Shown here: positions 14,065-33,457 of the stretch, piece by piece
Position numbering within the stretch: position 1 is the first letter of the stretch
How the letters are laid out: each line of letters begins with the position of its first letter
Source of the DNA: Ignavibacteria bacterium
Lineage (GTDB): Bacteria; Bacteroidota; Ignavibacteria; Kapaibacteriales; UBA4661
Assembly: GCA_013298775.1 (NCBI GenBank)
Contig: JAAFIV010000041.1
Coordinates: forward strand, 1-39,966
Length of the DNA stretch: 39,966 nucleotides
Direction of reading: 5' to 3'
Position numbers and translations under genes: made by a program
Notes under the pieces: generated by a model
Seen by the model: the letters and a program-made list of their open reading frames with translations, nothing else
What the model was told of the DNA's origin: nothing
The model's database searches: none

Positions 14065-14094
14065 GGAAGAATGACGGAGGGTGTTTTCGGGAAA

Positions 14095-14126: not shown

Positions 14127-14190
14127 AAGAGTGCGTTTATACTTTTAGTACACGGTGAAATCTGTGCAGGGTATGAAAAATAAGGCTTCC

Positions 14191-14266
14191 GTGGCACAGA
14201 CATTCTTATCTGTGTTTTCCACTTGAACACCGCACTAACACTCACAGACAGGAATGTCTGTGCCAC
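14191..14266. repeat. Family C element (REPIN-like), copy C1
   Basis: Two inverted 24-bp arms (14191-14214 and 14243-14266) begin or end with gtggcacagaca. The right arm is itself a small hairpin, cacagaca-ggaa-tgtctgtg; the left arm is a slightly degraded one. A 28-bp core separates them. It sits between purD and the chemotaxis receptor gene. Confidence 0.85.
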
Positions 14267-14298
14267 TATTGCAGAGATTTTGTTGTGTACTGAGGCAT

Positions 14299-16515
14299 TT
14301 ACAAATCAATCGTGAATGGCTCATTCATTACTGGTACTTTTGGCTGCTCGCGCACGTGAACGCCGTTGCTATTGTCTGCAAGGGTGATAAAATCTGCATC
14401 GGTGAAGCCTATAAACGGTTGATGACCATTCGTCGCGGCTTGCATGAGGTCGGTTTCATCTAATTTGAAGAAGTTCAACAAGCCTTGCAAATTATTGGTC
14501 AATTTGCCCAAACGCTGTACACTTTGGCGTATTTGCTGGATGGACGCACCCGATTCTGCTGAAATTTTCTGCACCGTTTGAATTGTTCTTACAATATTTC
14601 CGCTCATGGCGGCTTGCTGCTCGCTTGCTGCCGCGATATTTTCTACCACTTTGGCAACATTTTCGGTGCGGTCAATGATACGATGCAGCGCAGAGCCAGC
14701 GTCCTGTGTGATGCTCTGCCCACGCTCTACGCGGTCTTTGCCAGCTTTCATGGCTTTAATCGCGCTACCTGTATCGGATTGAATACGGTCAATCATAATC
14801 GTAATTTGCTTGGTGGCTTGCTGTGTGCGCTCTGCCAAGCTCCGCACTTCGTCCGCAACAACCGCAAAGCCGCGTCCTTGCTCGCCTGCGCGGGCTGCTT
14901 CGATAGCAGCGTTCAGCGCAAGCAGGTTTGTTTGGTCAGCAATTTCTTCAATCACTTGCGCAATTTTTCCAATTTCCTTGCTGCTTTTGCCAAGCTCGGA
15001 AATTACGCCAGCAGAATTCGAGACCGCCTCGCCAATCACACTCATTTCGCGTATCATTTCCTCCACAATTGTTTCGCTCTGTGCCGCATCATTGCTTGCA
15101 CCTGAGGCATCGTGCGCTGCCATCACGGTTTTGCGGGAATTGTCGTGGATGGTGCTGTTGATTTCACCAACGGTCAGCGTTGCAGCCTCCATTTCATCGG
15201 CTTGCTGAGACAATCCTTGAATGAGTTGCTGTACTTGTTTGGTAATTTCCGTGTTCGCCGTAGCAGTATTTTCGGCAGCATCGGCGACCTTATCCACCAT
15301 GAGGCGAATGTTGCTCACGGCAGAATTGAAGCCGTCGTAGAGCTTGCCAATGTCGTCGTTGCTCGTTACGGGAAGCTGCACAGTGAGGTTGCCATTGGAA
15401 AATTCGTCCATGCTGTGCAAAATGGTTTCAATGCTTGCCGACAAGCGTTGTTTTTCCTCGCTAATTTGCCGCACAGCCGCATCCACCTTTGCTTGAACAC
15501 TTGCTTTCTCTGTTCGTAACTCCGAAACATACGCCTGAATATGCGCAGTCATTTGCCGAAACGAAACCGCTAAATCCTCAATTTCATCATTGCTGCGCAC
15601 ATCGTCCAAACGCACAGCATAATCCCCTTCAGCAATGGCGCGGGCTGCACGGCGCAGCGTATTAAGCGGCTTTGTGATAATGCGTGCCAGAAGAAGCGCA
15701 ATACCAATGCTCAAGATAATTGTTAGCAAAACGGCAATGCCAGAAAAAGCGAGGTACGACGAGGCTTTGGAGGATTTCTCTCGTGCCATTTCTTTCAAAA
15801 TTGGTCGCACTGCTTTGACATGTTCTTTGAAATCTGCTCGATTTTTTTCGACGACTTTTGCCAACAGCGCAAGCTGTTCCGATTGCAAACGGCATTCCTC
15901 TACTAAGCGGATAAACTCTTGCTGCGAAGCGGGGTCGGTGCTGACAAGATTTGCTTTTGTTTCTACAAAATTCAAGGTTGCATCAAACTCTTTTTGAGCT
16001 TTTTGAATTTTCCGTCCCATAAATGCCGCCTCAGCATATTCGCGGAGCTTGCTGCGGCTTAATTGCATGGTGAAAATAAGTTCGTCGGCTTCTACGCCAA
16101 GAGTGAGTTTTTCCGCGCCTCTCAAGCGAGAATTGATTTGCCCTAAAATTCCTACGGTATCATTCAAGCCAATAGTACGCGAAAGAAGTACCGTAGAATC
16201 AAAATTTTGTTTGTAGTTTGCAAGTGCGACCGCCAGACGCTCGGCGGTTGCTTCGCCGCGAAAAAGATTAACAAGCGAATCGCAAGTAGTAACGGCAGAA
16301 TCTACGCGGGCGGCGTACTTCATCTGACGAAACGTGATGAAATCTAAATCGCTTTGGCGCGATTGCAAAAAGCTAATTTCAATCAATCGTACATTCTCTC
16401 GTTCATCCAATGCACGATTTGAGAGAAGTGCGAACAGACTAAGAAGCATCGTGAATGACAGCAACACAGCCGCCATTCCAATAAGTTTTCGAGAAAGTGT
16501 CCAGCGAAATTTCAT
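14299..16515 (-). CDS. Methyl-accepting chemotaxis protein
   Basis: This 738-residue receptor has a first membrane helix (about 11-31) and a periplasmic helical sensor region to about 250 of the four-helix-bundle type. A second membrane helix follows (about 255-280, [24 protein letters not shown]), then HAMP (about 280-332). The long cytoplasmic signalling rod contains the conserved hairpin tip ([21 protein letters not shown], then [18 protein letters not shown]). It signals to CheA/CheW. The C-terminal end (residues after FKLDETDL) is not a CheR-docking pentapeptide. The ligand is unknown. No other che gene lies in the window. A TAAGTTTG box on the minus strand (16617-16624) may be its -7 element. 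Confidence 0.92.
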
Positions 16516-16616
16516 AACGATACCTTGTCAGCTTCGGTAAGGAAATCAGTAAAGAAAGCGTGTATAACAACATAACAACGGCATAAAAGAGCTTTTTAGA
16601 ACGTTCACAAATGGCG

Positions 16617-16624
16617 CAAACTTA
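16617..16624 (-). promoter_or_regulatory. Possible -7 promoter box of the chemotaxis receptor gene
   Basis: The minus-strand sequence TAAGTTTG fits TAnnTTTG and lies about 100 bp before the start at 16515. I found no good upstream TTTG partner, so the call is weak. Confidence 0.3.
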
Positions 16625-16667
16625 GACTGTTACGCGTACCATTCGATTCAGTTTTTACGCGCCTTCG

Positions 16668-16694
16668 GTAGCACAGACACTCTTGTCTGTGCCG
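16668..16694. repeat. Family C single arm, copy C2
   Basis: A lone family C hairpin: gcacagaca pairs with tgtctgtgc around a ctct loop, preceded by gta so that the 5' end reads GTAG. The partner arm seen in C1 and C4 is missing. Confidence 0.7.
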
Positions 16695-16786
16695 CAAAAT
16701 GAGTATTTTGCGAAAGTCCTACTTTTGCCATTATCGTGAAAACATCGTGAAATAACTACACCTTGAATAACCACCAGTAAATTACA

Positions 16787-17515
16787 ATGAAAACAGTTCA
16801 ATTTCAAGCATTTATGCGCATATTCCATCAAACATTAGCTTTATCATTGCTCTTTATGCTTGTACACGGTGCGAGCATAAATCTCGACGCACAAACCATG
16901 CCAAACCATTTGGATTCGCTCCATTCTACGCGCCTTTCCATCAATAAAACAGCAATGCTTACGCTCGGAGCGTGGGCGGTCGGGAACATGGCAATAAATG
17001 GTGCGCTCATGCTACAATCTTCACAAAACCTTGCTTCGGGGAATGAAGCCGCTAAAGTACCATTTTATTTTCAGCAAATGAATGTCTTTTGGAATGTGAT
17101 AAATCTTGGCTTGGCAGCAGGTGGTTACTGGGGTTCGCTCTCCGAGCCAGCGCACGCAGCTTCGCTTATGGACGCGCTGGAAAAACAAGCCTCCATTGAG
17201 CGCATTCTCCTTTTCAATGCCGGACTTGACTGCGCATATCTCGCAGCCGCCGCATGGATGCTGGAGCGTAGCAAAACCGACAGTGAGCGGCAAGGATTAT
17301 GGCAAGGCTACGGGCAATCACTTCTGCTACAAGGCGCATTCCTGCTGGTCTTCGACGTTGCCGTCTTTGCGATACAGCACACTTCCACCGAGCCGCTTGT
17401 GCGGAAAGTATTGGAGAGTGTGCAGCTTGCACCAGTGAGTATTGGTGCGGCTTCGGGGATGAATCAAGGAATGCAAACGGGATTTCAGCTAGGTGTGCGT
17501 GTGAAAATTGAGTAA
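16787..17515 (+). CDS. Unknown membrane protein of a small Bacteroidota-type family
   Basis: This 242-residue protein has an N-terminal signal-like helix (TLALSLLFMLVHGASI) and three or four further hydrophobic helices. The first of them, MLTLGAWAVGNMAINGALML, carries the LGxWAxxN pattern seen in a group of uncharacterised Bacteroidota membrane proteins (I think DUF6992, not verified). Later segments are FWNVINLGLAAGGYWG, ILLFNAGLDCAYLAAAAWML and LLLQGAFLLVFDVAVFAI. The end after residue 225 looks like a short polar tail. Function is unknown. It seems to be a single-gene unit, with palindromic repeats on both sides. Confidence 0.7.
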   Translation: MKTVQFQAFMRIFHQTLALSLLFMLVHGASINLDAQTMPNHLDSLHSTRLSINKTAMLTLGAWAVGNMAINGALMLQSSQNLASGNEAAKVPFYFQQMNVFWNVINLGLAAGGYWGSLSEPAHAASLMDALEKQASIERILLFNAGLDCAYLAAAAWMLERSKTDSERQGLWQGYGQSLLLQGAFLLVFDVAVFAIQHTSTEPLVRKVLESVQLAPVSIGAASGMNQGMQTGFQLGVRVKIE

Positions 17516-17555
17516 ATTTGGCGTAATGATTCAAGTCATTTCAAGTCATTCGTCA

Positions 17556-17664
17556 GGGAACGCGGATTTGGAGGACTTTTGATGACTGGTCAGGACTCTA
17601 CCATATTTTTTCACAATTTTTATGTCCTCTAAAGTCCTCTTCAGTCCTCAAAATCCGCGTTCCC
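17556..17664. repeat. 109-bp imperfect palindrome before the SRAP gene
   Basis: The left arm gggaacgcggattt..ggaggact (17556-17577) returns as agtcctc..aaaatccgcgttccc (17643-17664). Several gaggact/agtcctc words in both orientations lie in between. Two direct copies of tcaagtcatt (17531-17550) precede it. It does not match families A-D. Confidence 0.75.
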
Positions 17665-17710
17665 CAATCACGATAGAAGCAGATAATTCCCATTCCCCAA
17701 AAGGCAGACT

Positions 17711-18478
17711 ATGTGCGGTCGCTACACCATGTTCATGAAGCCAGAGGAGATAAAAAGCCGCTTCAAAGCGCAAATTTCTCCCGACGTTCTGGAAAAACTC
17801 CGCCAAGCGCGATACAATCTTGCTCCCACGCAAGATATTCCTACCATTACCAAAAGTCTGAATGCAAGTATTGATGAGGCAATGATGCAGGAATGTACGA
17901 TGATGCGCTGGGGGCTCATTCCCTCGTGGGCGAAAGACACACGTATCGGCGCAAAACTCATCAATGCTCGTGCAGAGACGCTCTTGGAAAAACCTTCCTT
18001 CCGAAATGCCGTGCAATCCCGCCGATGCTTGATTCTGGCAAATGGTTTTTATGAATGGCACAGCATTTCCCCAAAGCGCAAACAACCAATGTACGTGCGC
18101 CTACGCTCACACGCGCCCTTCGCGCTGGCTGGACTTTGGGATGAATGGAGAAACCCCGAAACACAAGCATCTGTGCGGTCGTGTAGCATTATCACCACAA
18201 CGCCAAATGCCGTTGTAGCGCAGTTTCACCATCGCATGGCAGTTATCCTTTCGCCCGACCATGAACAAGCATGGCTGGATGAATCTTTACCAAGCGAAGA
18301 TGTGATGCGGCTTTTGCGTCCTTATCCCGCAGAAGAAATGGAAGCCTTTCCCGTGTCCGAGCGCGTGAACAGTTTCCACGACGACGATGCCAGCCTTATT
18401 GAACCTGTTGAAATCATGCAAACGATTCAGCCTTCCGCAGCAAAAAATGCTACAAACGAGCAACAAAGCCTCTTTTGA
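17711..18478 (+). CDS. SRAP-domain protein (YedK/HMCES family)
   Basis: This 255-residue protein matches the SOS-response-associated peptidase family, which caps abasic sites in single-stranded DNA by a thiazolidine link to its N-terminal cysteine. The active-site set is present: Cys2 right after the initiator methionine (MCGRYT), Asn85 in LINARAET, Glu115 in NGFYEWH, and His173 in the H-x-R-M motif. The last motif reads HHRMAVIL, with Ala where Pro is usual. A low-complexity tail (AAKNATNEQQSLF) may be a docking end. It is probably cytoplasmic and damage-related. The MscS gene follows after 76 bp. Confidence 0.93.
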   Translation: MCGRYTMFMKPEEIKSRFKAQISPDVLEKLRQARYNLAPTQDIPTITKSLNASIDEAMMQECTMMRWGLIPSWAKDTRIGAKLINARAETLLEKPSFRNAVQSRRCLILANGFYEWHSISPKRKQPMYVRLRSHAPFALAGLWDEWRNPETQASVRSCSIITTTPNAVVAQFHHRMAVILSPDHEQAWLDESLPSEDVMRLLRPYPAEEMEAFPVSERVNSFHDDDASLIEPVEIMQTIQPSAAKNATNEQQSLF

Positions 18479-18554
18479 AGGATGAGGTTTAAGGGCTGAG
18501 GGCTGAACATTTGACACTCCTTTCCAATACCACATTTCATTTCACCACTCAGCT

Positions 18555-19721
18555 ATGATTGACGAACTGTACAACCGCTTCATTCTTCCCTATCTCGCAA
18601 ACCCGTATTTCCCTTCGATTGTCATTAGCATTGGTGCGCTCGTGCTAGGGATTGTGCTGCGGTGGCTGACGGGAAAATGGCTGGTGCGCATGGCGGCACA
18701 AAGCGAGAACAAATACGACGATATTTTGGTGGACGCGCTGCGCCGTAGTATTCTCTACATTATTCTGCTTACAGGCTTGAACATTGCTCTTCGAGAGCTG
18801 CCGCGTGCAAAAATTATCATGCCCTACGCCCGACCATTCCTGACAGCGAGCTTTATTGTGCTGCTTTCGTATATTCTTACCAAAGTTTTGAAAATGCTCG
18901 TTCGCATTCGTGCCGAACACGACCATAACCGCATGGCTGCTGTCTCGCTGACACGCCGAAGCATTGAGATTGTGGTGTACACGATTGCCTGCGTGATGGT
19001 ATTGCGGGCGTTTGGGGTGGATATTGCGCCGATTATCACTGCGCTTGGTGTGGGTGGTTTGGCGGTCGCTCTCGCGCTTCAGGACACGCTTTCCAACTTC
19101 TTTGCGGGAATTTACCTGACGTTGGCAAATCAAATCCGCGTCGGCGATTACATCCGCATCAGCGATGGGAATTTTGAAGGCTACGTGCGCGACATCGGTT
19201 GGCGCAATACAACAATTGAAATGCAGGAAATGAACAGCGTTTTGATTCCTAACAACAAGCTCTCCCAAGCGATTGTTACGAATTTTCACCTGCCGACCGA
19301 AATCCAGTATTTGCTGCTTACCTTTGGTGTGCATCACAACACCGACCCGCAACTTGTCGAGGACGTACTGACCGCAATGACGCTGGAATACGGCTCGGCA
19401 ACGTGCGAGGAGGCACAAGAATTACGTGAGGGAAAAATACGCGGTCTCTTGCATACGCCAGAGCCAGTGATACGCTTTCGGGAGTTTGGTGAGTTTACGT
19501 TGAACTTTCGCTTTTTTATTGCGATAAGCCACTTCGATTGGCAATTTGAAGCCCGAAGCAATGTAATGAAGCAGATTTATTACACTTTCAAAAAGCATGG
19601 AATCATTGTTCCGATGCCAATACGCGCATTGCAAATCGGTGCGCATCCTGAATCCAACGCAGAGGCAAGTATTAGTGCGGCAGAAATGGCATTGTTTATG
19701 AAGGAAATGCGAGGAAAATAA
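18555..19721 (+). CDS. MscS-family small-conductance mechanosensitive channel
   Basis: This 388-residue protein has four to five membrane helices. The last is the pore-lining TM3 (GVGGLAVALALQDTLSNFFAGIYL, about residue 165 on). A beta domain (VGDYIRISDGNFEGYVRDIGWRNTTIEM) and the C-terminal alpha/beta domain follow, with NSVLIPNNKLSQAIVTNF at the junction. The channel opens on membrane tension and releases solutes in hypo-osmotic shock. It is larger than E. coli MscS (286 residues) because of extra N-terminal helices. It converges on the small minus-strand gene with 20 bp between stops. Confidence 0.92.
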   Translation: MIDELYNRFILPYLANPYFPSIVISIGALVLGIVLRWLTGKWLVRMAAQSENKYDDILVDALRRSILYIILLTGLNIALRELPRAKIIMPYARPFLTASFIVLLSYILTKVLKMLVRIRAEHDHNRMAAVSLTRRSIEIVVYTIACVMVLRAFGVDIAPIITALGVGGLAVALALQDTLSNFFAGIYLTLANQIRVGDYIRISDGNFEGYVRDIGWRNTTIEMQEMNSVLIPNNKLSQAIVTNFHLPTEIQYLLLTFGVHHNTDPQLVEDVLTAMTLEYGSATCEEAQELREGKIRGLLHTPEPVIRFREFGEFTLNFRFFIAISHFDWQFEARSNVMKQIYYTFKKHGIIVPMPIRALQIGAHPESNAEASISAAEMALFMKEMRGK

Positions 19722-19741
19722 GACCGTTAGGGGAGGCGAAA

Positions 19742-20011
19742 TCAATGCGCTTGCTCTAAAATAGTAACACGACGCTTCAAGTCGGAAATATCATCCGCCT
19801 GACGCTGTGCGGGTTCGATGACCGTTTTTTGCAACATGGCGGTCAAGGCGAGAATAGCTTGGGTGTTGCGCTCGCTTGCCGCACCAAACTCTTTGCGCAT
19901 GGCGATTTGTTCTTCAACAACAGTGTCCAGTTTAACAGCCATGTTATCTAGTTTATCAAGTTTAATGACCATATCGGCAAGCAGTTCGATGATGCGTGTA
20001 TCGGTACTCAT
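19742..20011 (-). CDS. Small unknown coiled-coil protein
   Basis: This 89-residue protein is predicted to be almost wholly helical, with heptad-like spacing of Leu, Ile, Met and Val (LADMVIKLDKLDNMAVKLDTVVEEQ, and ISDLKRRVTILEQ at the end). It has no membrane helix or catalytic motif. I do not recognise a family. Small proteins of this kind often oligomerise. The frame is open from ATG to stop with normal codon use, and no better frame covers the gap between the channel and the kinase. Confidence 0.6.
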   Translation of the reverse strand: MSTDTRIIELLADMVIKLDKLDNMAVKLDTVVEEQIAMRKEFGAASERNTQAILALTAMLQKTVIEPAQRQADDISDLKRRVTILEQAH

Positions 20012-20152
20012 GGCGGTTTCTTAAAAAGTATGGATGCAAGATTGCATAGCGGTTTAGAGTTATTGATTGCCTTTCAACATACTGCTTTTTTCAAGAAAAT
20101 CAAACCTCGTACGCGTGGGGGCAAAAGCCTAGCATCACCATAGGAAATACCA

Positions 20153-20182
20153 TTGCTCAACAACGATATTTCCCTATATTTG
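20153..20182 (+). promoter_or_regulatory. Bacteroidota-type promoter of the sensor kinase gene
   Basis: TTG (20153-20155), a 19-nt spacer and TATATTTG (20175-20182) fit the consensus. Transcription would start near 20190, giving a leader of about 130 nt that includes the whole 11-bp tandem repeat. Confidence 0.6.
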
Positions 20183-20233
20183 GGGTTCGTCGAATTGCCT
20201 TTCACAGGCTTTTGCAACACCTTCATTTTGCGA

Positions 20234-20322
20234 AGAATCTCAAAAAAAATCTCAGTAGAATCTCGGTAGAATCTTAGCAGAATCTTAGAAAAATCTCAGA
20301 AGAATCTTAGAAAAATCTCATG
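20234..20322 (+). repeat. 11-bp tandem repeat ending in the kinase start codon
   Basis: Eight units of an 11-bp word (one of 12 bp) with consensus aRaatctYagN run without gaps from 20234. The last unit is aaaatctcatg, so its final ATG (20320-20322) is the start codon. The array replaces the usual ribosome-binding site. Confidence 0.9.
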
Positions 20323-23300
20323 GAACTACGAACTTGGAATGCAGTATTGATGCGCTTTCTGGTAAGCATTGCTCTTGTGGTATTGCTCTCCAGTGTGTTG
20401 GCAATATACCCCAACACCTCATCAATCCTTCACGCGCAGCCAACGATGAATTTCAGTCGCTATTCGATTGAGCAAGGCTTGTCGCAAAGCAATCCGTTTT
20501 GCATTATGCAAGACAAGCGAGGTTTTATCTGGGTTGGAACGCAAGATGGCTTGAATAAATTTGATGGGTACAACTTTACGATTTATCGCCCCAGTGCGAA
20601 ATGCGCCTTGTCCGATGCACATGTTCTTGCGCTTCACGAGGACAAACAGGGTAAAATCTGGATTGGCACACGCAATGGCGGCGTGAGTATGTTCGATTAC
20701 AGTAGCGAGAAATTTTCCTCGTACACAGCACCAAAACAAGCTACTGAGCTGGGTTTAGTCTCAAATCATATCCGCAGCATTTGTGAGGATAGTACAGGGT
20801 TGCTCTATTTTGCTACGCCCGAAGGCATGAGTATTTTCAATCCAAGAACAAAAGCATGGCAAACCATCAAAGAATGTACCGATGCAAACGGTAAAGAAAA
20901 ACCTTCTGGAGCGAATATCTACACGGTTGTTTCTGATACAAAAGGAATGATTTGGATTGGCACAAATGATGGCATTGTTGGGTATAATTCTATTTCACAG
21001 CAAACGCAGGTTTTCCGTAAAGGCTTTGCTATTTCGGAAATACGCTCTTTGCTTGTAAGCCGCACAAATCCTGATATTCTCTGGGTGGGAACCTACGGCG
21101 GCGGCTTGCACAAGTTCAATATGAAAACCTATGAAATAGAGGTTTTTCGCCGTTCAACGACCGAGCTGAAAATTTTCTCGCAAGATAACATCCTTGCCAT
21201 AGTGGAAGAGCCGACAACAGGCGCACTCTGGCTCGGTACATACGGCGGCGGCTTGCAGCATTTCAACCCCAAAACCCGCACATTTACTGGTATCTTGCAA
21301 GATGAATTACGTTCAAATTCGCTCGTCAATAATTTTATTTACTCGCTCCACCTCGACCGCTCTGGTATTTTATGGGTTGGAACTTATGGTGGCGGTGTAA
21401 ATAAATACGACCCTGCCGAAGCAAAATTTGTCAGCTATCACCGCGACCCCCGTATTTCCAAGACCCTGAGCCATAATTATATTTATGCCATCTATGAAGA
21501 CCGCTCAGGTACGGTCTGGGCTGGCACAAACGGCGGCGGCTTGAATAAACTCCTGAACCCACAAACAGGCGAGTTTACGAATTATTGGCTAGATAACAAC
21601 ACGCCGTCGTCGAATCCTCGCAACAACATTCGCGCAATTTACGAAGCCGATGATGGCTTTTTTTGGCTTACAAGCGGCGATGCGCTGTACAAATTCAATC
21701 CCAAAAATGGCGCAGTAACACGCTTTCGTCCGAAAGACATGCCTGAAATTTCTACACCAGAAACAGCATTTTCGTTTTCGATTTGCGTTGATGCAGAAGG
21801 AATATTTTGGGTAGGAACATGGGGCTATGGCTTGTACCGCTTCAATCCCAAAACAGGCGAGTTTATCACGCATTTCAAACACGACCCTACCAATCTCTCC
21901 TCATTGCCCGCAAATGGTCTCTACTATGGGCTGTGCGATAGTAAAAAACGCCTTTGGTTCGGCACCAATGGTGGAAGTTTATGTCAATTCGACACCAAAA
22001 CACAAGGTTTTATCAGCTATCAGCAACTTCTTACCGAGAAAAACGGCATTAGTAGCAATATCATTCGCACGATTCATGAAGATGCAAACGGTACCTTATG
22101 GCTTGGCACAGCAGGTGGTTTGAATAAATTTAATCCCGAAACGCAAGAATCCACGCTCTTCCGCGAGCAAGATGGCTTACCGAATAATGTGATTTACGGC
22201 ATTCTCGGCGACCGCTCAGGCAAACTCTGGTGCAGTACCAATCGTGGTATTTTTTCGTATAATCCGCTTGCAAAAAAGGGCGAGAAAGCCTTTCAAAGCT
22301 ATGATGTTTCCGATGGTCTGCAAAGCAATGAATTCAATGCTGGAGCGTATCATTTAGGGCGGTCAGGGCGCATGTATTTTGGCGGCATCAATGGTTTTAG
22401 CACATTCTTCCCCGATAGTGTGCGCCGCAATGATTACCTTCCACCCGTGATAATTACTGGCTTCAAGACGTTTAATGAACCGTTTGAAACGGAACAAGCT
22501 ATCAGTGCGACGGAAGAATTAGAAATTCCAGAAGATAAAAACGTTCTCACGTTTGAATTTACCGCGCTCAATTACACGCTTTCCGGCAAAAACGTCTATG
22601 CCTACAAACTCGAAAATTTTGATAAAAACTGGATTTACGTCGGCAATAAGCGCGAGGCAACCTACACGAACTTAGGCGGCGGAACCTACACCTTCCACGT
22701 AAAAGCCGCCAACAACGACGGCGTGTGGAATGAAGACGGAGCGCAAATTCGTGTGGTAATTTTACCGCACTGGTGGAAACGCTGGTGGGCAAATTTGATG
22801 TGGGTGAGCATTATTGGTTTGGGTATTTTTGCTGTCTATAAGTGGCGTGTTCGCTCGTTTCAAGAGCAAAATAAAGTTTTGGAACAGACCGTTGCCGAGC
22901 GTACCCAAGAGGTGCAGCGTCAGGTAACAATTTTGAACGATTTGGCACAAGAAATTGAGCTGGCAAATACGGAATTGCAAGACCGCAATCATCAGGTAGA
23001 AGCAAAAAATATGCAGCTTGCCGAAATGAACGGGCAGCTTGCGAAAAACAACACTCTGCTCGACCAAACGCTCGATGAATTGCACAGTTTGAACCAAGAC
23101 CTTGAAAGCCGCATCCAAGTTCGCACGGTGGAACTTCGCGCTGCGAAAGACGCGCTGGAAAAATCGCTCGTGCAAGAAAAGGAAATCAACAACCTTCGCG
23201 CACGGCTTATTGCCTCGATTTCGCATGAATTTCGCACGCCGATTACCGTTATTCAATCCTCATGCGGCATTCTCCAACGCTACATCGGCAAAATGAACGA

Positions 23301-23892: not shown

Positions 23893-23903
23893 ATACTAGC
23901 TTT

Positions 23904-24013
23904 GCGTGAAGCTCTCAATTCTTATTGAGGGTCTCACTCTCACACGAAAAGAAGTGAGAAAAAAGTGAGTGAGAAAAAAGTGAGACCCTCGCCAAGAAGC
24001 GAGAGCCTCACGC
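23904..24013. repeat. 110-bp nested palindrome after the sensor kinase gene
   Basis: Outer arms gcgtgaagctctc (23904-23916) and gagagcctcacgc (24001-24013) match at 12 of 13 positions. Inside them gagggtctcact (23927-23938) pairs perfectly with agtgagaccctc (23979-23990). The loop holds direct copies of agtgagaaaaa. It may act as a transcript end or processing signal. Confidence 0.8.
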
Positions 24014-24065
24014 TGAATACATCCTTACAACCTTACAATATTTGGCTCTTAAAACACCATCAAAT

Positions 24066-24860: not shown

Positions 24861-24870
24861 TGTGCAAAAA

Positions 24871-25047
24871 TGGTAATTAGTCAGGTCTTGTGGGCATTGC
24901 ACTCGTTCGCCCCCTTGATAAAGGGGGAACGGGGGATTAGACGGTTAAACACCGCTTGAAATCACTCGTTTCGCATGGTAAATCCCCCGTTCCCCCTTTA
25001 TCAAGGGGTCGAATTCGACAATATTCTGCATACCTGACCAGTTACAA
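24871..25047. repeat. Family B element, copy B2, with nested A2
   Basis: The left arm tggtaattagtcaggt (24871-24886) is an imperfect inverse of acctgaccagttacaa (25032-25047). Between the arms lies a complete family A element. Confidence 0.75.
24906..25021. repeat. Family A palindromic element, copy A2
   Basis: The arms ttcgcccccttgataaag.. and ..ctttatcaaggggtcgaattcgacaa are nearly the same as in A1. The core, read in reverse complement, resembles the A1 core around aaacgattgatttgaagcgg, so A2 lies in the opposite orientation. It is nested in B2 and fills the gap before the YdjM-like gene. Confidence 0.85.
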
Positions 25048-25062
25048 AAAATGTGAACAACA

Positions 25063-25704: not shown

Positions 25705-25743
25705 GTTTTGTGGAAAAATCTTTGTTCCGTATAAAAGTTAAGC

Positions 25744-26125
25744 AGTGGCACAGACATTCTTGTTATCTGCATTGGAGTAGACGGTAGTATGGTCTTTGAC
25801 AACGAAAGTTTTGGTAGGGTGGTTTTTTGCTCACAATGCCGTGAAAGCCGCACCAATCCTTCGCCCCCTTGATAAAGGGGGAACGGGGGATTTGGTCGTC
25901 TGCGTGTGAGCTAGGGGAGCGGGAGACCGCACAAAACAATAATCCCCCGTTCCCCCTTTATCAAGGGGGCGAATGCGACAAGCTGCAAAGCCATTTTCCA
26001 TGAACTATCAAAACTCTCATTGTCAAAGAACTCTATGACTTCTACTCCACTACAGGTAACATTCTTGTCTGTGTCTGTCGTCTAAATCCCTCACCAATAC
26101 TCACAGACAAGAATTTCTGTGCCAC
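25744..26125. repeat. Composite palindrome: family C arms around a second inverted repeat around A3
   Basis: The outermost left arm gtggcacagacattcttg (25744-25761) is inverse to the end of 26102-26125. A complete C element (C3) is visible at 26058-26125. Inside, the stretch near 25792-25820 (ggtctttgacaacgaaagttttgg) is inverse, with few changes, to the stretch near 26003-26031 ending attgtcaaagaact. Element A3 lies in the middle. The whole 507-bp gap between the YdjM-like gene and the dipeptidase is taken up by this structure and short flanks, with no gene. Confidence 0.8.
25860..25980. repeat. Family A palindromic element, copy A3
   Basis: The arms at 25860-25893 and 25941-25980 carry the same gcccccttgataaaggggg and aatcccccgttcccc words as A1 and A2. 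The core (25894-25940) is different from theirs. Confidence 0.85.
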
Positions 26126-26211
26126 TATTTGGTTGTGAATGCTTCCAATGACAATTATTGAAACCATAATCTTTCTCTCTATTTAATTTTTGAATCGCAA
26201 GGAATTGTGCT

Positions 26212-27579: not shown

Positions 27580-27601
27580 GCCAGTAGCGCACAGTCACTA
27601 C

Positions 27602-27634
27602 CCCGCCCAAACGGTTTCTTCACCGTCCGGCGGG
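27602..27634. repeat. Family D hairpin, copy D3
   Basis: The sequence cccgcccaaacggt pairs with accgtccggcggg between the dipeptidase and PAP2 genes. It is similar in arm sequence to D4. Confidence 0.55.
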
Positions 27635-27665
27635 TTCCTCACGCACGTTTCACTTTTCATTTCCA

Positions 27666-28223
27666 ATGGACACTCTTCTCGCCCTCGACCGTGCAATTTT
27701 CCACGTTCTGAACAGCACCGTCGCTAATCCCGTCTTCGATGTTATTATGCCCTTTATCACGGATATTGGCAATATCGTTCCCGTGATGATTGCGATTATG
27801 CTTATTATTCTCTGGCAAGGAAGCCGTGAAGACATAGTTTTTATGCTGCTTGCGTGTTGTTCGCTCATTCTCGCTGACCCCGCCGCCAGCTATTTGAAGC
27901 AAACCTTCCAGCGTTCTCGTCCCTGTCAGGAATTGCCAGACGCACGTGCGCTTGGCGGCTGCGGAAAAAGCAAGTCCTTTCCCTCTGGACACGGCACAAA
28001 TAATGGCGCGGTGGCAATGGCGGCAGTCATGGTCTTTGGATGGCGAGCTTCGCGCTCATGGTGGCTTGCGGCAGGAATTATTTCGTATTCCCGTGTGTAT
28101 ATGGGCGTGCATTATGTAAGCGACGTTGTAGCAGGAATGGTGCTTGGTGCGGCGATAAGTTTTTGTCTGGGTGCGCTCTGGCGGCGTATCTTTGCTCGAA
28201 ATGCTTATTTGCGGATTGCTTAA
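27666..28223 (+). CDS. PAP2-family membrane phosphatase
   Basis: This 185-residue integral membrane enzyme carries the three PAP2 phosphatase motifs: KQTFQRSRP (K-x6-RP), SFPSGHGTNNG (PSGH) and SRVYMGVHYVSDV (SR-x5-H-x3-D). It has five or six hydrophobic helices. The active site faces the periplasm in relatives, which dephosphorylate undecaprenyl pyrophosphate or phosphatidate-type lipids, or transfer phosphate to lipid A. The substrate here is not known. A start at 27666 gives a complete first helix. The next gene has its own promoter. Confidence 0.9.
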   Translation: MDTLLALDRAIFHVLNSTVANPVFDVIMPFITDIGNIVPVMIAIMLIILWQGSREDIVFMLLACCSLILADPAASYLKQTFQRSRPCQELPDARALGGCGKSKSFPSGHGTNNGAVAMAAVMVFGWRASRSWWLAAGIISYSRVYMGVHYVSDVVAGMVLGAAISFCLGALWRRIFARNAYLRIA

Positions 28224-28245
28224 ACGTATCTTGCCGAAAAGCGTC

Positions 28246-28277
28246 TTTGAAAATGCTGCGTAGAAGAGTATCTTTGC
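28246..28277 (+). promoter_or_regulatory. Bacteroidota-type promoter of the GH2-like gene
   Basis: TTTG (28246-28249), 19 nt, then TATCTTTGC (28269-28277): the same -7 word as at the DUF3127 promoter. It lies 46 bp before the start at 28324. Confidence 0.75.
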
Positions 28278-28323
28278 ATACTTTTCTTGAAAAACCTCTC
28301 TTGAGAAACTTCTTTCACTTTCT

Positions 28324-31014
28324 ATGAAATTTTTTGTGAAATCTTTTGTGTCAACCCCCGTACTTTCTTTGCGGACACGCGTATTTTCTTTGCTTCTTGC
28401 AAGCATGGTTGCTGGAGCAATAGGCTTTGTTCTTTCAAATGCTCTCGCTTCATACGCTTTAGCACAATCACCCCGCTATACGGTGCTTACGCCCGACCAA
28501 TACAAGTTGCTGACGCATTCCACGATGCGCTTCGTGCAACCGCTTGCTGGCGAGTGGCAACGGACATCAACGCTTGATGGAGACTGGCAGCGCGTAACCT
28601 TGCCGTATTCCGAATCGACGCAAGGTGAGTTTCGGTATCGTCGGACGTTTGTGATTGATGAAGCACTCATCAAACGCTACGAATGGCAGATTCTCTCACT
28701 TGGCAGCTATTACCGCACAGAAATTTACATCAACGGGCAATACCTTTTAAGCCATGTGGGCGGTACGGTGCCGTTTCAAGTCCGCATTCCCGATTCGTAC
28801 TTGGCAAATGGCAATAACACGCTGGAAATTGTTGTGAATAATCAATTGGACGCAAATAGCACGATTCCACTCCGCGCAACGCCGTATGAATCCAAAGGCT
28901 TTGGAGGAATTGTTCGAGAATTATTTCTTGTCGGAACGCCTGATGTGTCGCTAGGAAGCGTGGACGTGAAAACGCAATTTCCAAACAACGACCTAAATAC
29001 CGCAAATACGCTCGTTACGGCATCGCTGGTATCGGGGAATTTATACCAATTTATTCGTGAAGATTCCTCGCAAGCTGGACGAATGATGCAAATCCAAAAA
29101 GCAAATGTGGAAGTAAGTGCGGAATTGCGCCTCGCCGATGATTCCAATACTGTCGTGGCTCGTGCAACGCCGACCACACTTGAAGTGCAGGCAAATCGGA
29201 ATGCGCAAGTAAAATTGAATTTTGTCGTGAGTGCGCCGCGTCTCTGGTCGCCAGCAACGCCGAATTTGTACACACTTGTTGTCACGCTCCGTAAAAACGG
29301 CGAAGTCGTGGATGATTATGTTTCAAATATCGGTTTGTACAATTTCCAAGAAGCTCCCATCGAGGATAAAATGGGCTTTTTGATGAATGGGCAGCCAATG
29401 AGCATCAAAGCGGTTGATTATATTGAAGACAGCGAAAATGGTGGTATGACAATAAATATGAGCGAATACGAAAAAGACGTGATTGCCTTGAAAACTCTTG
29501 GTGCAAACGTCATTCGCGTTCGCTATTCTGCGCCGCATCCATATTTGGTGTACTTGTGCGATAAGTATGGAATAATGATGATGATTGACATTCCTGCACG
29601 CGGCATCCCTACTTCTATTCTGGGTATTGACAATTATATCGTTACAGCACAAACCATTGCCAAAGACCTCATTCAAAGCTATGAAAATAGCCCTTCCACT
29701 ATTGCTTGGGGGCTTGTGGAAGAAACTGCCGAAGAAACCCTCGAACTTGCGGAATACTCACAAAAAGTCCGCGAAACCATTCGCCCGCTCTCGGCAAAAT
29801 TACTCTACAAAACCGTGCGAAGTCAAGCTCCAAGCCTGAATGTAGATGGCTACAATTTTGTTGTCTTCGCAATGAAAAGCGAGGACGGTCAAGCCTTTCG
29901 TGCAGAAGCAGAACGTTTAGTTGCGCTCAACCGCAAGAAACCAAGCGTTTTCAGCTTTGAGAATTTTATCCAGCCCGCAAACCACCGTGGATATTCCGAC
30001 CCGCTCTCGGTCGAGGCGCAAGCACGCTACATTCGCTTACGTTTTCGCCTTTTGCAGGAATATAAAATTTCAAGCAATGTCGTCATTGGCTCTTTCAACG
30101 ATTACGAAACCGAGCGACCAATTCTCATTACCAATAACGACGCACAATACATAGCGACAAGCGGCTTAATTGCTCGCAACCGAGACCTCCGCTTGCCCTA
30201 CCAAATGGTAAAAGCACTCTTCAACGACGAAAAAGAACCCGTACTCGAAGCAGGCAACTACAAGCCTGAAATACCGCCATTTTACACGATTGTCAGCATC
30301 GTTCTGGTATTGATATTTTTTGTGATGATGAATACCTCGCGCCGCTTCCGCGAGGATGTACTGCGGTCATTATTTCGTCCGTACAATTTTTACTCCGACA
30401 TCCGCGACCAGCGTATTTTGTCGAATGCAGGAACCTTCACGCTCGCACTGTTACTTTCGGCTACAATGGGCTTGATTGTGTCTTCCGTGCTGTATTTCCT
30501 CCGCTTTAGCTACTTGCTGGACTACGTTCTCACGCATCTTGTTCTGTCCAATACTATCAAGGAATTTTTAAATCAAATCGTTTGGATTCCTTGGGCATCG
30601 TTTGTTGCAGCAACACTCGCTTTTTTGGTGGTGATGTTTGTTCTGACCTTGCTTTTACGCGTCGGCTCGTTGCTGGTGAAATCTCGCATTTTCATTGGCG
30701 ATGCCTTTGTCATTGCGGTATGGGCATTTTTACCGCTTGTATTCTTGCTTGTGATGACTTCGGGCTTATACCGACTGCTCACAACCGATACCTACACCGT
30801 TATTTCGCTGTTGCTCATTGTCTATGTGTTGCTGTGGTGTTTTTATCGGATGCTGCGGGGTACATCGGTGATTTACGATGTGCGAGCCTTATACATCTAC
30901 GTCATTGGAATCGTTGTTTTGGCGATATGTATTGGCGGCGTGGTCTTTTACTACGATACAACGCGCTCCACCATTGCCTTTACAAAGTATTTCTTCACGG
31001 TATTGTACCGATAA
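28324..31014 (+). CDS. Glycoside-hydrolase-family-2-like protein with six C-terminal membrane helices
   Basis: This 896-residue protein has a signal peptide (about 18-48), then a GH2 sugar-binding jelly roll (about 100-205; YINGQYLLSHVGGTVPFQV), an Ig-like domain (about 215-340) and a TIM-barrel region (about 345-620). The acid/base motif WSLGNE of GH2 reads WGLVEE (462-467): Glu467 is kept but the near-invariant Asn is Glu466. A candidate nucleophile Glu546 (SFENF) lies 79 residues later, close to the 76 of E. coli LacZ. From residue 652 on, six hydrophobic helices form a membrane domain of Yip1-like look (LFRPYNFYSDIRDQR before it). So a periplasmic GH2 fold sits on an integral membrane part. 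Activity is uncertain. The barrel gene follows after 25 bp. Confidence 0.8.
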   Translation: MKFFVKSFVSTPVLSLRTRVFSLLLASMVAGAIGFVLSNALASYALAQSPRYTVLTPDQYKLLTHSTMRFVQPLAGEWQRTSTLDGDWQRVTLPYSESTQGEFRYRRTFVIDEALIKRYEWQILSLGSYYRTEIYINGQYLLSHVGGTVPFQVRIPDSYLANGNNTLEIVVNNQLDANSTIPLRATPYESKGFGGIVRELFLVGTPDVSLGSVDVKTQFPNNDLNTANTLVTASLVSGNLYQFIREDSSQAGRMMQIQKANVEVSAELRLADDSNTVVARATPTTLEVQANRNAQVKLNFVVSAPRLWSPATPNLYTLVVTLRKNGEVVDDYVSNIGLYNFQEAPIEDKMGFLMNGQPMSIKAVDYIEDSENGGMTINMSEYEKDVIALKTLGANVIRVRYSAPHPYLVYLCDKYGIMMMIDIPARGIPTSILGIDNYIVTAQTIAKDLIQSYENSPSTIAWGLVEETAEETLELAEYSQKVRETIRPLSAKLLYKTVRSQAPSLNVDGYNFVVFAMKSEDGQAFRAEAERLVALNRKKPSVFSFENFIQPANHRGYSDPLSVEAQARYIRLRFRLLQEYKISSNVVIGSFNDYETERPILITNNDAQYIATSGLIARNRDLRLPYQMVKALFNDEKEPVLEAGNYKPEIPPFYTIVSIVLVLIFFVMMNTSRRFREDVLRSLFRPYNFYSDIRDQRILSNAGTFTLALLLSATMGLIVSSVLYFLRFSYLLDYVLTHLVLSNTIKEFLNQIVWIPWASFVAATLAFLVVMFVLTLLLRVGSLLVKSRIFIGDAFVIAVWAFLPLVFLLVMTSGLYRLLTTDTYTVISLLLIVYVLLWCFYRMLRGTSVIYDVRALYIYVIGIVVLAICIGGVVFYYDTTRSTIAFTKYFFTVLYR

Positions 31015-31039
31015 AATTTTGATACGTTTTCAAGGTATT

Positions 31040-32893
31040 ATGGCTTTTTTCGCTCATCATTACCATTGCACATTTCTTGATTTTATGCACTCTGTGGCTG
31101 TTTTTCTTCGTGGAAGAACAGCCACTGTGCTTTTTACCGTTTGCCTATTTTGTAGCTCTTTCCAATACAAAAGCTCGGCGCAAACAAATGAGAAGCCCGC
31201 AGAAAAACCGAGCAATAAACCAGAAAAAGCAAAAGTAGAACAGCCGTTGGAATTGCCAGAATTTGTGATAACAGGCGTAGAATCGCTCGACGTGCCAGGC
31301 GGAACAAAGCAAGCACCCAAGCCGCCGCGCAAGCTCTCCGCACAACAATTACAAACCTTCAACCCGCTTGACAAACTTTCTTTCGGGCTTTTGCCCTTTG
31401 CAAGCGCACCAACACTGGTGTTGCCGTCCCAAGAGCGCAATGGATTTCTGAAAGCCGAGTTTGGAATGTTTCTCACGCCAAGCCTCGAAGCGGGTTACAG
31501 AGCCGTTCTTGGCAATTTCGACATCAACGCCGCTCTGGGCGGCACTCTCAGCAATGGACACCTCCCGAATGCTGATTTCTCCGACCTTTTTGCACGAATC
31601 CACTCTAGCTATCTTGCCGGAGAGCAGTTCCTCTTTTTTGCGGGAAGCCGCACCGATACATATCTGCGAGCGCGGCGGCGTGAATACTCGTTCTTTGGAG
31701 CAAGTAATCTGAGCGCGGAAGCAATTCGCCGTGCGCAACTCGGCATAGATGCTGGTGTTCAGACCTCTGGCGTGTTCGAGGGCTGGGGCTATGAAATGGG
31801 CGTACATGGAGAATTTGCCAATATCCGCACACAGGAAATCACCAATCTTCCCACAACGGCGGATAATCTTGCTGCAAAAGGCAATCTTCTAGCAAAAAAA
31901 CTCATGGGTGAATGGGCAATCGGCGGGCAGATACAAGCAGAATCGGTCTTCATCAGTAGTCGGCAGGATAGCGTGGAAGCCGCACCGCAGCAGCCCTTTT
32001 TGCTGACACCAAATTTGGTGGTAGAATTTCGCAGCGAACAAAAAACCTTTGAAATGCAGGTGCGTGGCGGGGCGCATATTTGGAACGATGCTTCCTTTCG
32101 CGCTAACCCTGCCGCCCGCATCACGCCTCACGTTTCGCTGAATGCCGCTCTGCATCCTGCCTACGGCGTATCGGTGATGCTGGAAGCCTTCTCTGGTGTG
32201 CGTTTGCAGACGCTGGGGCGCATTGTGAAAGAAAATCCCTACGCGCCGTTTTTAGATGGCTTTTCCCGTCCGCGCATTGTGCCAAACTACACGCTTTTTC
32301 CCAATCCTCTCGCCACACAAACCTTATACGATGCGCAGCTTTCGGTGCGTCTGCAACCAAGCAAACACCTCAGTTTTACGCTCGGCGGACGCTCGGAAAT
32401 GAATACCAACGCGCTGCTTTTTGGTCGAAATGAGTCCAACATTGGCGAAATTGCTGTTGTTTTCGGGAACACCAGTATTCATCGGGTGTTTGGGGAATGT
32501 TCGTTTTTACCCGATAGTAACAACGCGCTTTCTGTTCGCGCAAATGCTGTCCTCAGCGCAAGTGGATTTGTGCTGAGTAGCTCCCGACCAATCGGCGTGG
32601 TGCCGTATCTCGCGCCTATTGAAGCGGCGGTGGAATATCGGCGGACGTGGTTTTCGGGCTTTTCTACGAATCTGAGTGCCGTTCTGCTTGGTGAGCGCAA
32701 AGCGAGTATCTATGAGCCTTCTGCGACATTACCACTTTTTGTGGATGTGCGCTTTGGGGTGGAATACCGCTTCACGCCTCAGTTCAGCGTGTATGCGCGA
32801 GGGACAAATCTGCTGAATCAAGCAATCTTTTTGTGGGATGGGTATCAGGAACGCGGCATATTTGCTGCTGTGGGCGTGGTTTTGACGTTTTGA
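31040..32893 (+). CDS. Plug-less TonB-receptor-like outer-membrane barrel
   Basis: This protein of about 617 residues ends exactly like a TonB-dependent receptor: FTPQFSVYARGTNLLNQAIFLWDGYQERG, then a last strand with terminal Phe. The preceding 500 residues show alternating beta strands. No plug domain is seen: after the signal peptide there is a Lys/Pro-rich linker (KPAEKPSNKPEKAKVEQP) and a short LPEFVITGVESLDVPGG segment, then strands begin. The start is uncertain: ATG 31040 has AAGG nearby, while ATG 31085 gives a neater signal peptide (cleavage near SSA-QT). It lies 25 bp after the GH2-like gene, so both are likely made together. Its substrate and function are unknown. Confidence 0.78.
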   Translation: MAFFAHHYHCTFLDFMHSVAVFLRGRTATVLFTVCLFCSSFQYKSSAQTNEKPAEKPSNKPEKAKVEQPLELPEFVITGVESLDVPGGTKQAPKPPRKLSAQQLQTFNPLDKLSFGLLPFASAPTLVLPSQERNGFLKAEFGMFLTPSLEAGYRAVLGNFDINAALGGTLSNGHLPNADFSDLFARIHSSYLAGEQFLFFAGSRTDTYLRARRREYSFFGASNLSAEAIRRAQLGIDAGVQTSGVFEGWGYEMGVHGEFANIRTQEITNLPTTADNLAAKGNLLAKKLMGEWAIGGQIQAESVFISSRQDSVEAAPQQPFLLTPNLVVEFRSEQKTFEMQVRGGAHIWNDASFRANPAARITPHVSLNAALHPAYGVSVMLEAFSGVRLQTLGRIVKENPYAPFLDGFSRPRIVPNYTLFPNPLATQTLYDAQLSVRLQPSKHLSFTLGGRSEMNTNALLFGRNESNIGEIAVVFGNTSIHRVFGECSFLPDSNNALSVRANAVLSASGFVLSSSRPIGVVPYLAPIEAAVEYRRTWFSGFSTNLSAVLLGERKASIYEPSATLPLFVDVRFGVEYRFTPQFSVYARGTNLLNQAIFLWDGYQERGIFAAVGVVLTF

Positions 32894-32905
32894 ACTTTGT
32901 TAAGA

Positions 32906-33160
32906 CTAGGAAAGCCTCTTCTGCTCAAGAGCCTGAATATCGAATGCAAGCCGCTTGTTTTCTATCTCCACTTCTTTTTCGCGGAGGTCGGCATTGCGAG
33001 CAGCGATTTCGAGTTCAAACTTTTTCAAGTCAAGTTCATTTCTATCGCGTTGCTTCAGAATGCCTAAATATCGCGCTCCGAGCAGCATCGAACCGATAAC
33101 GCTCGGCACTCCAAGAACGCCGAGGAGGACAAAAAGGTCGTGTAGATTTTCGTAGCCCAT
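32906..33160 (-). CDS. Small membrane-anchored coiled-coil protein
   Basis: This 84-residue protein has one N-terminal hydrophobic helix (LFVLLGVLGVPSVIGSMLLGARYLGIL) and then a charged helix rich in Lys, Glu and Arg (KKFELEIAARNADLREKEVEIENKRLAF). It resembles phage-shock or cell-division accessory proteins in shape only; no family is recognised. I start it at 33160 because the upstream in-frame residues (QTTRKTP) look non-coding. Its 3' end lies 12 bp from the convergent barrel gene. Confidence 0.6.
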   Translation of the reverse strand: MGYENLHDLFVLLGVLGVPSVIGSMLLGARYLGILKQRDRNELDLKKFELEIAARNADLREKEVEIENKRLAFDIQALEQKRLS

Positions 33161-33234
33161 AGGGGTTTTGCGTGTTGTTTGGTCGTTACGTTTTTTAACT
33201 ATACTGATAACGGGTAGAAATTGCACAAGGCAAA

Positions 33235-33279
33235 CCCGCCCGACGGCAGTGTTCTTGCACTCTTCAGCCGCCGGACGGG
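33235..33279. repeat. Family D hairpin, copy D4
   Basis: The sequence cccgcccgacggc pairs with gccgccggacggg and is followed by aagag. Its right half, gcactcttcagccgcc, is also found inside B3 at 36247-36262, linking families B and D. Confidence 0.65.
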
Positions 33280-33334
33280 AAGAGCGTCCTACTCTTGTTG
33301 AGTATATCTCTTGGCAATAACAATCTCTTCAATA

Positions 33335-33410
33335 GTGGCACAGACATTCCTGTCTGTGAGTATTGGAGAGGGGTTCGGGCGGAGAACACAGACAGGAATG
33401 TCTGTGCCAC
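33335..33410. repeat. Family C element (REPIN-like), copy C4
   Basis: This is the most perfect copy. The arms 33335-33358 and 33387-33410 are exact inverses of 24 bp. Each folds into an 8-bp stem (cacagaca with tgtctgtg) with a 4-nt loop. The core agtattgg.. matches the reverse complement of the C3 core (..ccaatact), so C3 and C4 lie in opposite orientation. Confidence 0.9.
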
Positions 33411-33457
33411 TACGAGACAATAACTATTTATCTCAAGATTTTTTGTGCTTTATAGCA

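Follow-up and report, generated by a model that had tools for sequence, protein, structure and literature searches.

This analysis provided evidence that a 39,966-nt stretch of DNA from an Ignavibacteria bacterium (hereafter the window; contig JAAFIV010000041.1, positions 1 to 39,966, assembly GCA_013298775.1) carries REPINs, namely pairs of repetitive extragenic palindromic (REP) arms facing each other across a short core, and that these pairs are very probably copied or moved in trans by a REP-associated tyrosine transposase (RAYT) that recognises the foot and stem of the arm. The basis comprises the copy number, the geometry of the pairs, their intergenic placing, the site differences between relatives, and the finding, in sister species as well as other phyla, of RAYT genes flanked by arms of this sequence. 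In sister species, such a RAYT can be read in the middle of a DNA-repair gene, recG, which would be an unusual lodging for an element of this kind.

REPIN copies in the window

The arm found in the window is 24 nt long and has the form GT(G/A)G-CACAGACA-NNNN-TGTCTGTG, and the arms pair head to head with a 28-nt core between them. Full 76-nt units, each consisting of an arm close to GTGGCACAGACATTCYTGTCTGTG, the core and a reversed arm, lie at 14191-14266 and 33335-33410. The features of the family are as follows.

14191-14266, no strand assigned: REPIN with head-to-head arms and a 28-nt core, between purD-like (GARS domains) and methyl-accepting chemotaxis genes
16668-16691, plus strand: lone arm with GTAG foot and CTCT loop, a pattern match that is missing at the orthologous place of the closest relative (G002)
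25745-25763, plus strand: left part of a REPIN left arm, its final 10 bases being copy 1 of the direct repeat ACATTCTTGT
25764-26058, no strand assigned: element of 295 bp with imperfect terminal inverted repeats, like a miniature inverted-repeat transposable element (MITE), interrupting the REP arm at its loop region
26059-26073, plus strand: right part of the same left arm, its initial 10 bases being copy 2 of ACATTCTTGT
26074-26125, no strand assigned: rest of the split REPIN, with its core at 26074-26101 and its right arm at 26102-26125; a gene for an M20 peptidase lies downstream
33335-33410, no strand assigned: REPIN with perfect 24-nt opposed arms and a 28-nt core (inverted repeat I19), adjoining a dehydrogenase E1-type gene

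The core pattern CACAGACANNNNTGTCTGTG matched the window six times at up to three mismatches, where 0.08 matches were expected and none of 100 shuffles reached six. The initial annotation, made from the letters of the window, had named three paired copies and two single arms. Two of these copies proved to be complete 76-nt pairs, in which the arms facing each other across the 28-bp core can be read directly, but the third (26058-26125) is part of the REPIN split by the MITE. Likewise, 16668 is indeed the start of a lone arm, which ends at 16691 and bears a GTAG foot such as had been noted at the 5' side of one arm, whereas 25744-25761 belongs to the 26058-26125 pair, as the left portion of its left arm.

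As single-stranded DNA, a single arm was predicted to form a hairpin of its own, in which a stem of 8 bp carries a loop of 4 nt and the GTGG foot stays unpaired (z -3.9; 2 of 200 shuffles as stable). Entire pairs fold into long hairpins, at -29.8 kcal/mol and z -10.6 for 33333-33412 and at z -6.5 for 14189-14268. The cores of the 26058 and 33335 copies had been said to match in opposite orientation, and this match was recovered as inverted repeat I3, with 83% identity over 71 nt.

Genome-wide population of arms

The source genome, a draft of 5,194,308 bases in 95 contigs that is 99.2% complete, holds 622 arms at up to three mismatches (326 forward, 296 reverse; reversed control, 0), which is well over the ten or so copies that the initial annotation took a mobile family to have. 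Among these arms, 375 are exact to GTRGCACAGACATTCYTGTCTGTG. A 400-kb sample of 20 stretches, 15 of them contiguous and unselected and five picked near known arms, contained 72 arms at up to four mismatches, with GTGG feet in 50 and GTAG feet in 18. The head-to-head pair was the commonest arrangement in the sample (24 clusters), with a start-to-start spacing of 52 in 16 of the 24, and most cores appeared by eye to be similar to one sequence in either orientation. When pairs were counted against singletons with a looser pattern in the 400 kb and the window, 26 head-to-head and nine tail-to-tail pairs stood against 14 singles, besides one group of four. Neither arm had a GTGG foot in seven of the nine tail-to-tail pairs, and arms with a GTAG foot and a CTCT loop, as at 16668, also occur within tail-to-tail pairs elsewhere in the genome.

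Only one of 45 clusters lay well inside a long open reading frame (ORF; at least 200 aa, with 30 aa on either side), although such ORFs, taken from a crude stop-to-stop set, make up 84% of the sample. The family shows the features by which REPINs are recognised, that is, inverted arms around a spacer, GT[AG]G feet, high copy number and a mostly intergenic position. The idea that singlets are decayed pairs gained no significant support: the 14 singles had more mismatches on average than the 74 grouped arms (1.86 vs 1.09, P 0.037), but three of them are halves or partners of MITE-split arms, and dropping these clusters beside MITE ends (11 vs 74 arms; 1.36 vs 1.09) brought P to 0.21.

Arms are also numerous in some, not all, of the seven other genomes of the genus (G002 to G008): 584 in G002, 265 in G007, 211 in G006, 103 in G004, 2 in G003, and 0 in G005 and G008. 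Two further genomes of the same family hold 2 (G001) and 0 (G009). Exact arms amount to 418 of 584 in G002, 55 of 103 in G004, 53 of 211 in G006 and 157 of 265 in G007. Arm decay was dismissed as a clock for the loss of a RAYT, since these exact fractions fail to separate genomes with a RAYT from those without.

Site differences between species

The three window loci were compared with G002 to G008 in 20 stretches beside the neighbouring genes (two of the three loci for G006; some stretches cut by contig ends), and arms were present in only one, the peptidase locus of G002. Conservation of every site, which the initial annotation had linked to fixed terminators, is not what was observed: arms occurred in none of the 17 stretches from the six more distant congeners and in one of three from the closest relative. 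At the 14191 site of G002, the flanks join without the repeat (L274 1-236 corresponds to 13910-14144, and 225-2469 to 14295-16545). At 16668, the flanks are there and the repeat is missing, together with more than the repeat; the G002 flank at 33335 could not be aligned. Of 42 clusters of the source genome, 3 had both flanks located in the G002 sequence compared, and all three places were empty, two of them being 14191 and 16668. The reverse comparison of 39 G002 clusters gave one pair with both flanks placed, and this pair is missing from the source genome.

RAYT genes associated with the arms

A RAYT between inward-facing arms of the window kind was found in three of the seven other genomes of the genus, G002, G004 and G007. 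The profile A1, built from six of the seven best RAYTs embedded in host genes, retrieved these three at E about 1e-74; the top ranking of its members follows by construction, and the methylase-embedded case L162 is independent. Nothing comparable was found with A1 in the other six genomes of the family. These proteins are RAYTs: NCBIfam NF047646 matched six of six RAYT members (the G004 RecG member exactly at the 80-bit cut-off), PF01797 (Y1_Tnp) matches were obtained in RAYT proteins, and the best PDB match was 4er8, E. coli TnpA_REP (E 6.8e-10). In the six-member A1 alignment, the HxH motif (H64, H66) and Tyr-x3-NP (Y125, N129, P130) are invariant.

Arms lie within about 50 bp on both sides of the RAYT in recG of G002, G004 and G007 and at the free-standing L297 and L300, and within about 200 bp at L299 and L302. 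These four free-standing RAYTs come from Planctomycetaceae, Ignavibacteria, Chlorobi (OLB5) and Gemmataceae genomes; the association is less clear in Solibacteraceae (L310), and the RAYT is broken in another Ignavibacteria genome (L312). A 73-row tree was built by quick search; many of its forks are weak, it has long branches, and its arm-free set includes one RAYT whose single arm is a poor match (L304). In this tree, a supported clade unites the four RAYTs from methylase genes and excludes the three from recG. The latter group, with weak support, with L297, L299, L300 and four further RAYTs that lack such arms. Since the arm-flanked RAYTs are split in the tree, at least two RAYT lineages appear, on this tree, to go with nearly the same arm. 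A single origin of arm-flanked RAYTs was unsupported, the state "embedded with arms" taking two changes and "free with arms" five. One Gemmataceae genome (G012) contains sister RAYTs, L302 and L309, flanked by GTGGCACAGACATTCCTGTCTGTG and GTGGCACAGGCTTCCAGCCTGTG arms, respectively, a pair in which joint change of arm and RAYT might be followed.

As single-stranded DNA, each REPIN arm would fold into a small hairpin whose 5' foot, GTGG or GTAG, stays unpaired and serves as a guide. The pair is most likely copied or moved in trans by a RAYT, a Y1 HUH single-strand nuclease of the TnpA_REP kind, that recognises this foot and stem. By analogy with E. coli TnpA_REP, which acts on single-stranded DNA, and with the REPINs of Pseudomonas (PMC3116915), we infer that a RAYT acts on these arms: it would bind the hairpin and its GT[AG]G foot, for example behind the replication fork, and would cut and join the pair, giving rise to new copies.

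Several data weigh against mobilisation by a RAYT. The cognate RAYT was not found in the source draft by Y1 and RAYT profile searches, and the best A1 match there (E 1.2e-6) is a distantly related, free-standing gene whose surroundings, out to 1.5 kb, contain no arms; likewise, none was found in G006 despite its 211 arms. The arm-flanked RAYTs are not one clade, so that arm and RAYT lineage do not correspond one to one. Clean-to-the-base empty sites were not obtained, as G002 lacks about 150 bp at 14145-14294, beyond the 76-nt unit, and neither excision nor new insertion was observed. Finally, the excess divergence of singlets is not significant without the MITE-split arms. The initial description of a non-autonomous mobile REPIN is nevertheless supported by copy number, geometry and site differences, and the RAYT flanked by the same hairpin that it foresaw exists in three sister genomes and in other phyla, but not in the source draft itself, where it was presumably lost recently or falls into an assembly gap.

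It is quite possible, though we give it somewhat less than even weight, that the population is a relict, spread by a RAYT since lost and now only decaying, with window copies that are immobile today. This would agree with the cognate RAYT not being found in the assembly, with a recG loop in the source genome that is occupied by another dispersed repeat instead of the RAYT unit, and with at least 16 arms broken by the MITE. However, the share of exact arms in the source genome (375/622) is close to that of RAYT-bearing G007 (157/265) and above that of RAYT-less G006 (53/211), and the draft is in 95 contigs, the RAYT locus of G007 itself lying at an assembly break.

Mobilisation by another enzyme, either the transposase behind the MITE or a distant Y1 gene, is improbable. 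The MITE is tied to the arm, and apart from the two distant genes at C1:198447 (with an inner stop) and C8:8052 no Y1 gene was found in the assembly. Nevertheless, both genes lack arms within 1.5 kb and branch in a remote part of the tree, for which reasons they were rejected as the cognate RAYT, and the MITE interrupts arms and has no whole arms at its ends. The broken gene at C1:198447-198791 (L031) is a distant RAYT relative located amid a repeat that is translated, by eye, as GLAPEGRGGK.

The notion of fixed intergenic terminators, or look-alike hairpins at mRNA 3' ends that are not mobile DNA, is highly improbable. The strong folds of the pairs would suit it, as would the fact that all but one of the 45 sampled clusters avoid the interior of long ORFs. 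Terminators as the sole reading were rejected on account of copy number (the same 24 nt in hundreds of congener copies, and exact in other phyla), the similar 28-nt cores, RAYTs between such arms and sites missing in relatives; by eye, moreover, no T-run directly follows the three window copies.

RAYT unit in frame inside recG

In G004 and G002, the arm-RAYT-arm unit lies in frame in one recG ORF (997 and 1060 codons, respectively, stop to stop), in which the RecG wedge, DEAD, Helicase_C and RecG C-terminal domains score over their cut-offs and Y1_Tnp stands mid-protein. The recG gene of G007 is divided between two contigs exactly here, and its unit can be read in frame with the second half up to the contig end. 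The arms are translated in the RecG-RAYT frame as VAQTFLSV ... QTRMSVP; in six frames, the GTGG-footed arm has no stop and the GTAG-footed arm has a stop in one. Insertion took place in the loop between the DEQH and SAT motifs, which we take to be helicase motifs II and III, and RecG homology stops at residue 513 and resumes at 519 of 1gm5. The predicted protein would have the RAYT made as part of the RecG chain.

The same loop is empty in G001, G003, G005, G006 and G008, where the two conserved motifs stand 33-47 residues apart. In the source genome (L192, C78), it holds a different dispersed translated repeat, PTLLPEGEGQ...PSPSGRGLGEGL, which is also matched at 11916-11995 of the window; at least 11 of the 20 sampled stretches gave matches to it with E below 1e-6. 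The presence of the recG unit is patchy: G004 and G006, which share 95% of the first RecG part, differ for it, the unit being in G004 only.

In-frame RAYTs beyond the genus

The embedded RAYTs in recG and in Eco57I-type genes are not free-standing single genes, as L297, L299, L300 and L302 are; a free-standing gene is usual for the RAYT family and is not part of its definition. RAYTs in frame in Eco57I-type methylase genes were found in three Planctomycetota and one Verrucomicrobiota (L161, L157, L159 and L162). An Eco57I domain follows the Y1 domain in L161, L157 and L162 (Pfam), and the frame of L159 reaches the contig end before that domain, its N part sharing 77% amino-acid identity with L161. 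Arms in the methylase group include many variants, with CACAGGC stems or GTGA feet; exact arms stand beside the variants in the three Planctomycetota, and the exact arm of L162 is several hundred bases off.

The exact 24-nt arm itself occurs in at least five phyla by NCBI names, under which Kapaibacterium belongs to Bacteroidota, Ignavibacteria to Ignavibacteriota and Solibacteraceae to Acidobacteriota. Among the matches listed, it was present in Kapaibacterium, Ignavibacteria, Chlorobi, at least 11 Planctomycetota, at least three Verrucomicrobiota and at least one Solibacteraceae genomes, and 18 genomes outside the genus, chosen for carrying it, have 1 to 230 exact copies. One exact arm shared across these phyla, several of them with an adjacent RAYT, allows the specificity of REPs to be tested across lineages.

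Scanning 296 genomes of the phylum with A1 gave at least 69 matches, in open frames of over 400 aa in six and in shorter frames in 63 (mostly 160-280 aa); at most 10 candidates were scored per genome, and the counts are lower bounds. Pfam host domains on both sides of Y1 in one frame were obtained for HsdR (L248) and for a DinG-like helicase (L160). Y1 was also in frame with host domains in an Eco57I-type gene (L244), an MmeI-like gene (L154), an AlaS-like piece (L165) and a DUF1156 gene (L158), and a FabA-like protein (L164) was in frame with a Y1 match just under the cut-off. L247 gave only a weak methyltransferase match; by eye, L246 resembles L247 and L245 resembles L248. Arms of the window type were not seen within 600 bases of the HsdR, DinG-like, MmeI-like and other such chimeras. 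No intein (Hint) domain was among the Pfam matches (E 0.001) of 14 chimeras; therefore, nothing suggests that the guest is spliced out. Structure prediction for a 601-aa piece of one methylase-RAYT chimera had a mean pLDDT of 32.8 (3 sequences) and was not used.

The age of guest and host was compared in the three Planctomycetota methylases, in whose genomes the profile had one match each at E 1e-10. The embedded RAYT is under purifying selection, with a ratio of nonsynonymous to synonymous substitution of 0.15-0.21. The proportion of synonymous differences in the three pairs was 0.25, 0.30 and 0.39 for the RAYT vs 0.66, 0.69 and 0.53 for the N-terminal part of the host, and 0.69 for the C-terminal part in the sole readable pair. 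The bootstrap 95% ranges of the guest-host difference were 0.31-0.52, 0.27-0.50 and 0.03-0.26, excluding zero in all three. By this measure, the methylase RAYT looks younger than its host, as if it had arrived after the hosts split, and the synonymous pattern is the one expected if the RAYT had passed from species to species, each time into the same site.

Based on this evidence, we carefully put forward the possibility that the REP-flanked RAYT is a homing-like element living in frame inside host proteins. A stop-free arm-RAYT-arm unit might enter fixed permissive loops of DNA-metabolism genes (recG and Eco57I-type genes, and HsdR, DUF1156-type and further genes for other RAYTs), stay there as an extra domain, spread between species into the same site and feed the REPIN population in trans. 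This proposal remains tentative, and one comparison speaks against it: the G004 and G002 pair, with 53% amino-acid identity in the RAYT and 83% in RecG, is near saturation at synonymous sites and offers, from its sequences, nothing in favour of recent spread.

Insertion of the MITE into the REP arm

The copies at 25745-25763 and 26058-26125 are one REPIN whose left arm is split by the 295-bp insert at 25764-26058, bordered by the 10-bp direct repeat ACATTCTTGT at 25754-25763 and 26059-26068. An unsplit pair stands at this place in G002 (L275 231-306), where the MITE is missing. The source genome has at least seven full-length copies of the MITE at 92-100% identity (40 of 122 candidates scored), and the 10-bp repeat, a target duplication, is exact at five of the seven and has one mismatch at two. 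Among the best 20 of 117 matches (L324-L343), two are internal pieces only and the other 18 represent 16 copies with readable ends; in all 16, the MITE ends adjoin halves of this REP arm, some of which are degenerate, L338 most of all. These data indicate that the loop region of the REP arm serves as a landing site of the MITE, so that the hairpin of one mobile element receives a second one.

A palindromic repeat, TTCGCCCCCTTGATAAAGGGGGAACGGGGGATT, lies at 1630-1770, 24887-25026 and 25860-25973 of the window, where it is paired and also occurs inside the MITE, and many of the 117 genome matches to the MITE query cover only this repeat. Two other repeats were observed in the window. The family ACCCGCC...GACGGG (D16) has two copies at 33234-33279 and 36224-36269 with 83% identity, and a tandem 11-bp repeat like AATCTCAGTAG at 20248-20324 lies just upstream of, and reaches into the start of, a 1190-aa sensor-like ORF.

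Comparison with known systems

Inteins and other homing elements reside in frame at fixed sites of conserved DNA-metabolism genes. The embedded RAYT resembles them in its in-frame, fixed-site residence and, in the methylase set, in that the guest looks younger than the host gene; it differs in that the 14 chimeras yielded no Hint domain. Neither an in-frame REP-flanked RAYT in a host gene nor the arm as a sequence string was reported in the literature searched, from which figures and subscription papers fell outside the scope.

The sections consulted of the works cited below offer several parallels. The REPINs of Pseudomonas fluorescens SBW25 (Bertels and Rainey 2011, PMC3116915) are similarly extragenic, high-copy hairpins of inverted REP arms with a spacer, and a RAYT is the presumed mover in both systems. 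Unlike in SBW25, the cognate RAYT was not found in our draft and sits inside a host gene in sister species; the singlets of SBW25 are more diverged, whereas ours are not significantly so. The GTAG repeats and REPtrons described by Di Nocera et al. 2013 (PMC3733652) are likewise GTAG/GTGG-footed palindromes of 20-40 bp in head-to-head and tail-to-tail dimers, with REPs inside repair genes and RAYTs flanked by REPs. Most GTAG-20 elements of Opitutus terrae are GTGG-footed, and deletion may explain missing REPtrons, according to the same sections; these do not describe RAYT genes inside host genes, in contrast to the recG case of the sister species.

In the TnpA_REP/RAYT subclasses of Quentin et al. 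2018 (PMC6006769), as far as the part cited goes, the HUH and Tyr-x3-NP motifs, the GT[AG]G-footed REPs around the gene and the patchy distribution across phyla are as found here. Subclass 2.4 has REPs inside the transposase gene with the frame unbroken, and our case is the reverse, a whole REP-flanked transposase in frame inside a host gene. That survey set aside proteins longer than expected, taking them for gene fusions or wrong annotations, a length filter that could have hidden embedded RAYTs. RAYTs are described as single-copy and vertically inherited in the part of PMC8049555 drawn on here, where the benefit that keeps them is little understood. Lodging in recG or in a restriction-modification gene suggests a means of retention, as the host would be hard put to delete the RAYT, which would be expressed with a useful gene.

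Elements inside REP sequences, like the 295-bp MITE of the window, include ISPpu9, ISPpu10, ISPa11 and ISRm22 in the part cited of Tobes and Pareja 2006 (PMC1525189); compared with these REP-targeting insertion sequences, the window element is short and lies in the hairpin loop region in the copies examined. In summary, REPINs, GTAG/GTGG-footed repeats, REP-flanked RAYTs, REPs in repair genes and REP-targeting insertion sequences are already in print, and the in-frame, homing-like lodging of a RAYT would, if confirmed, be new.

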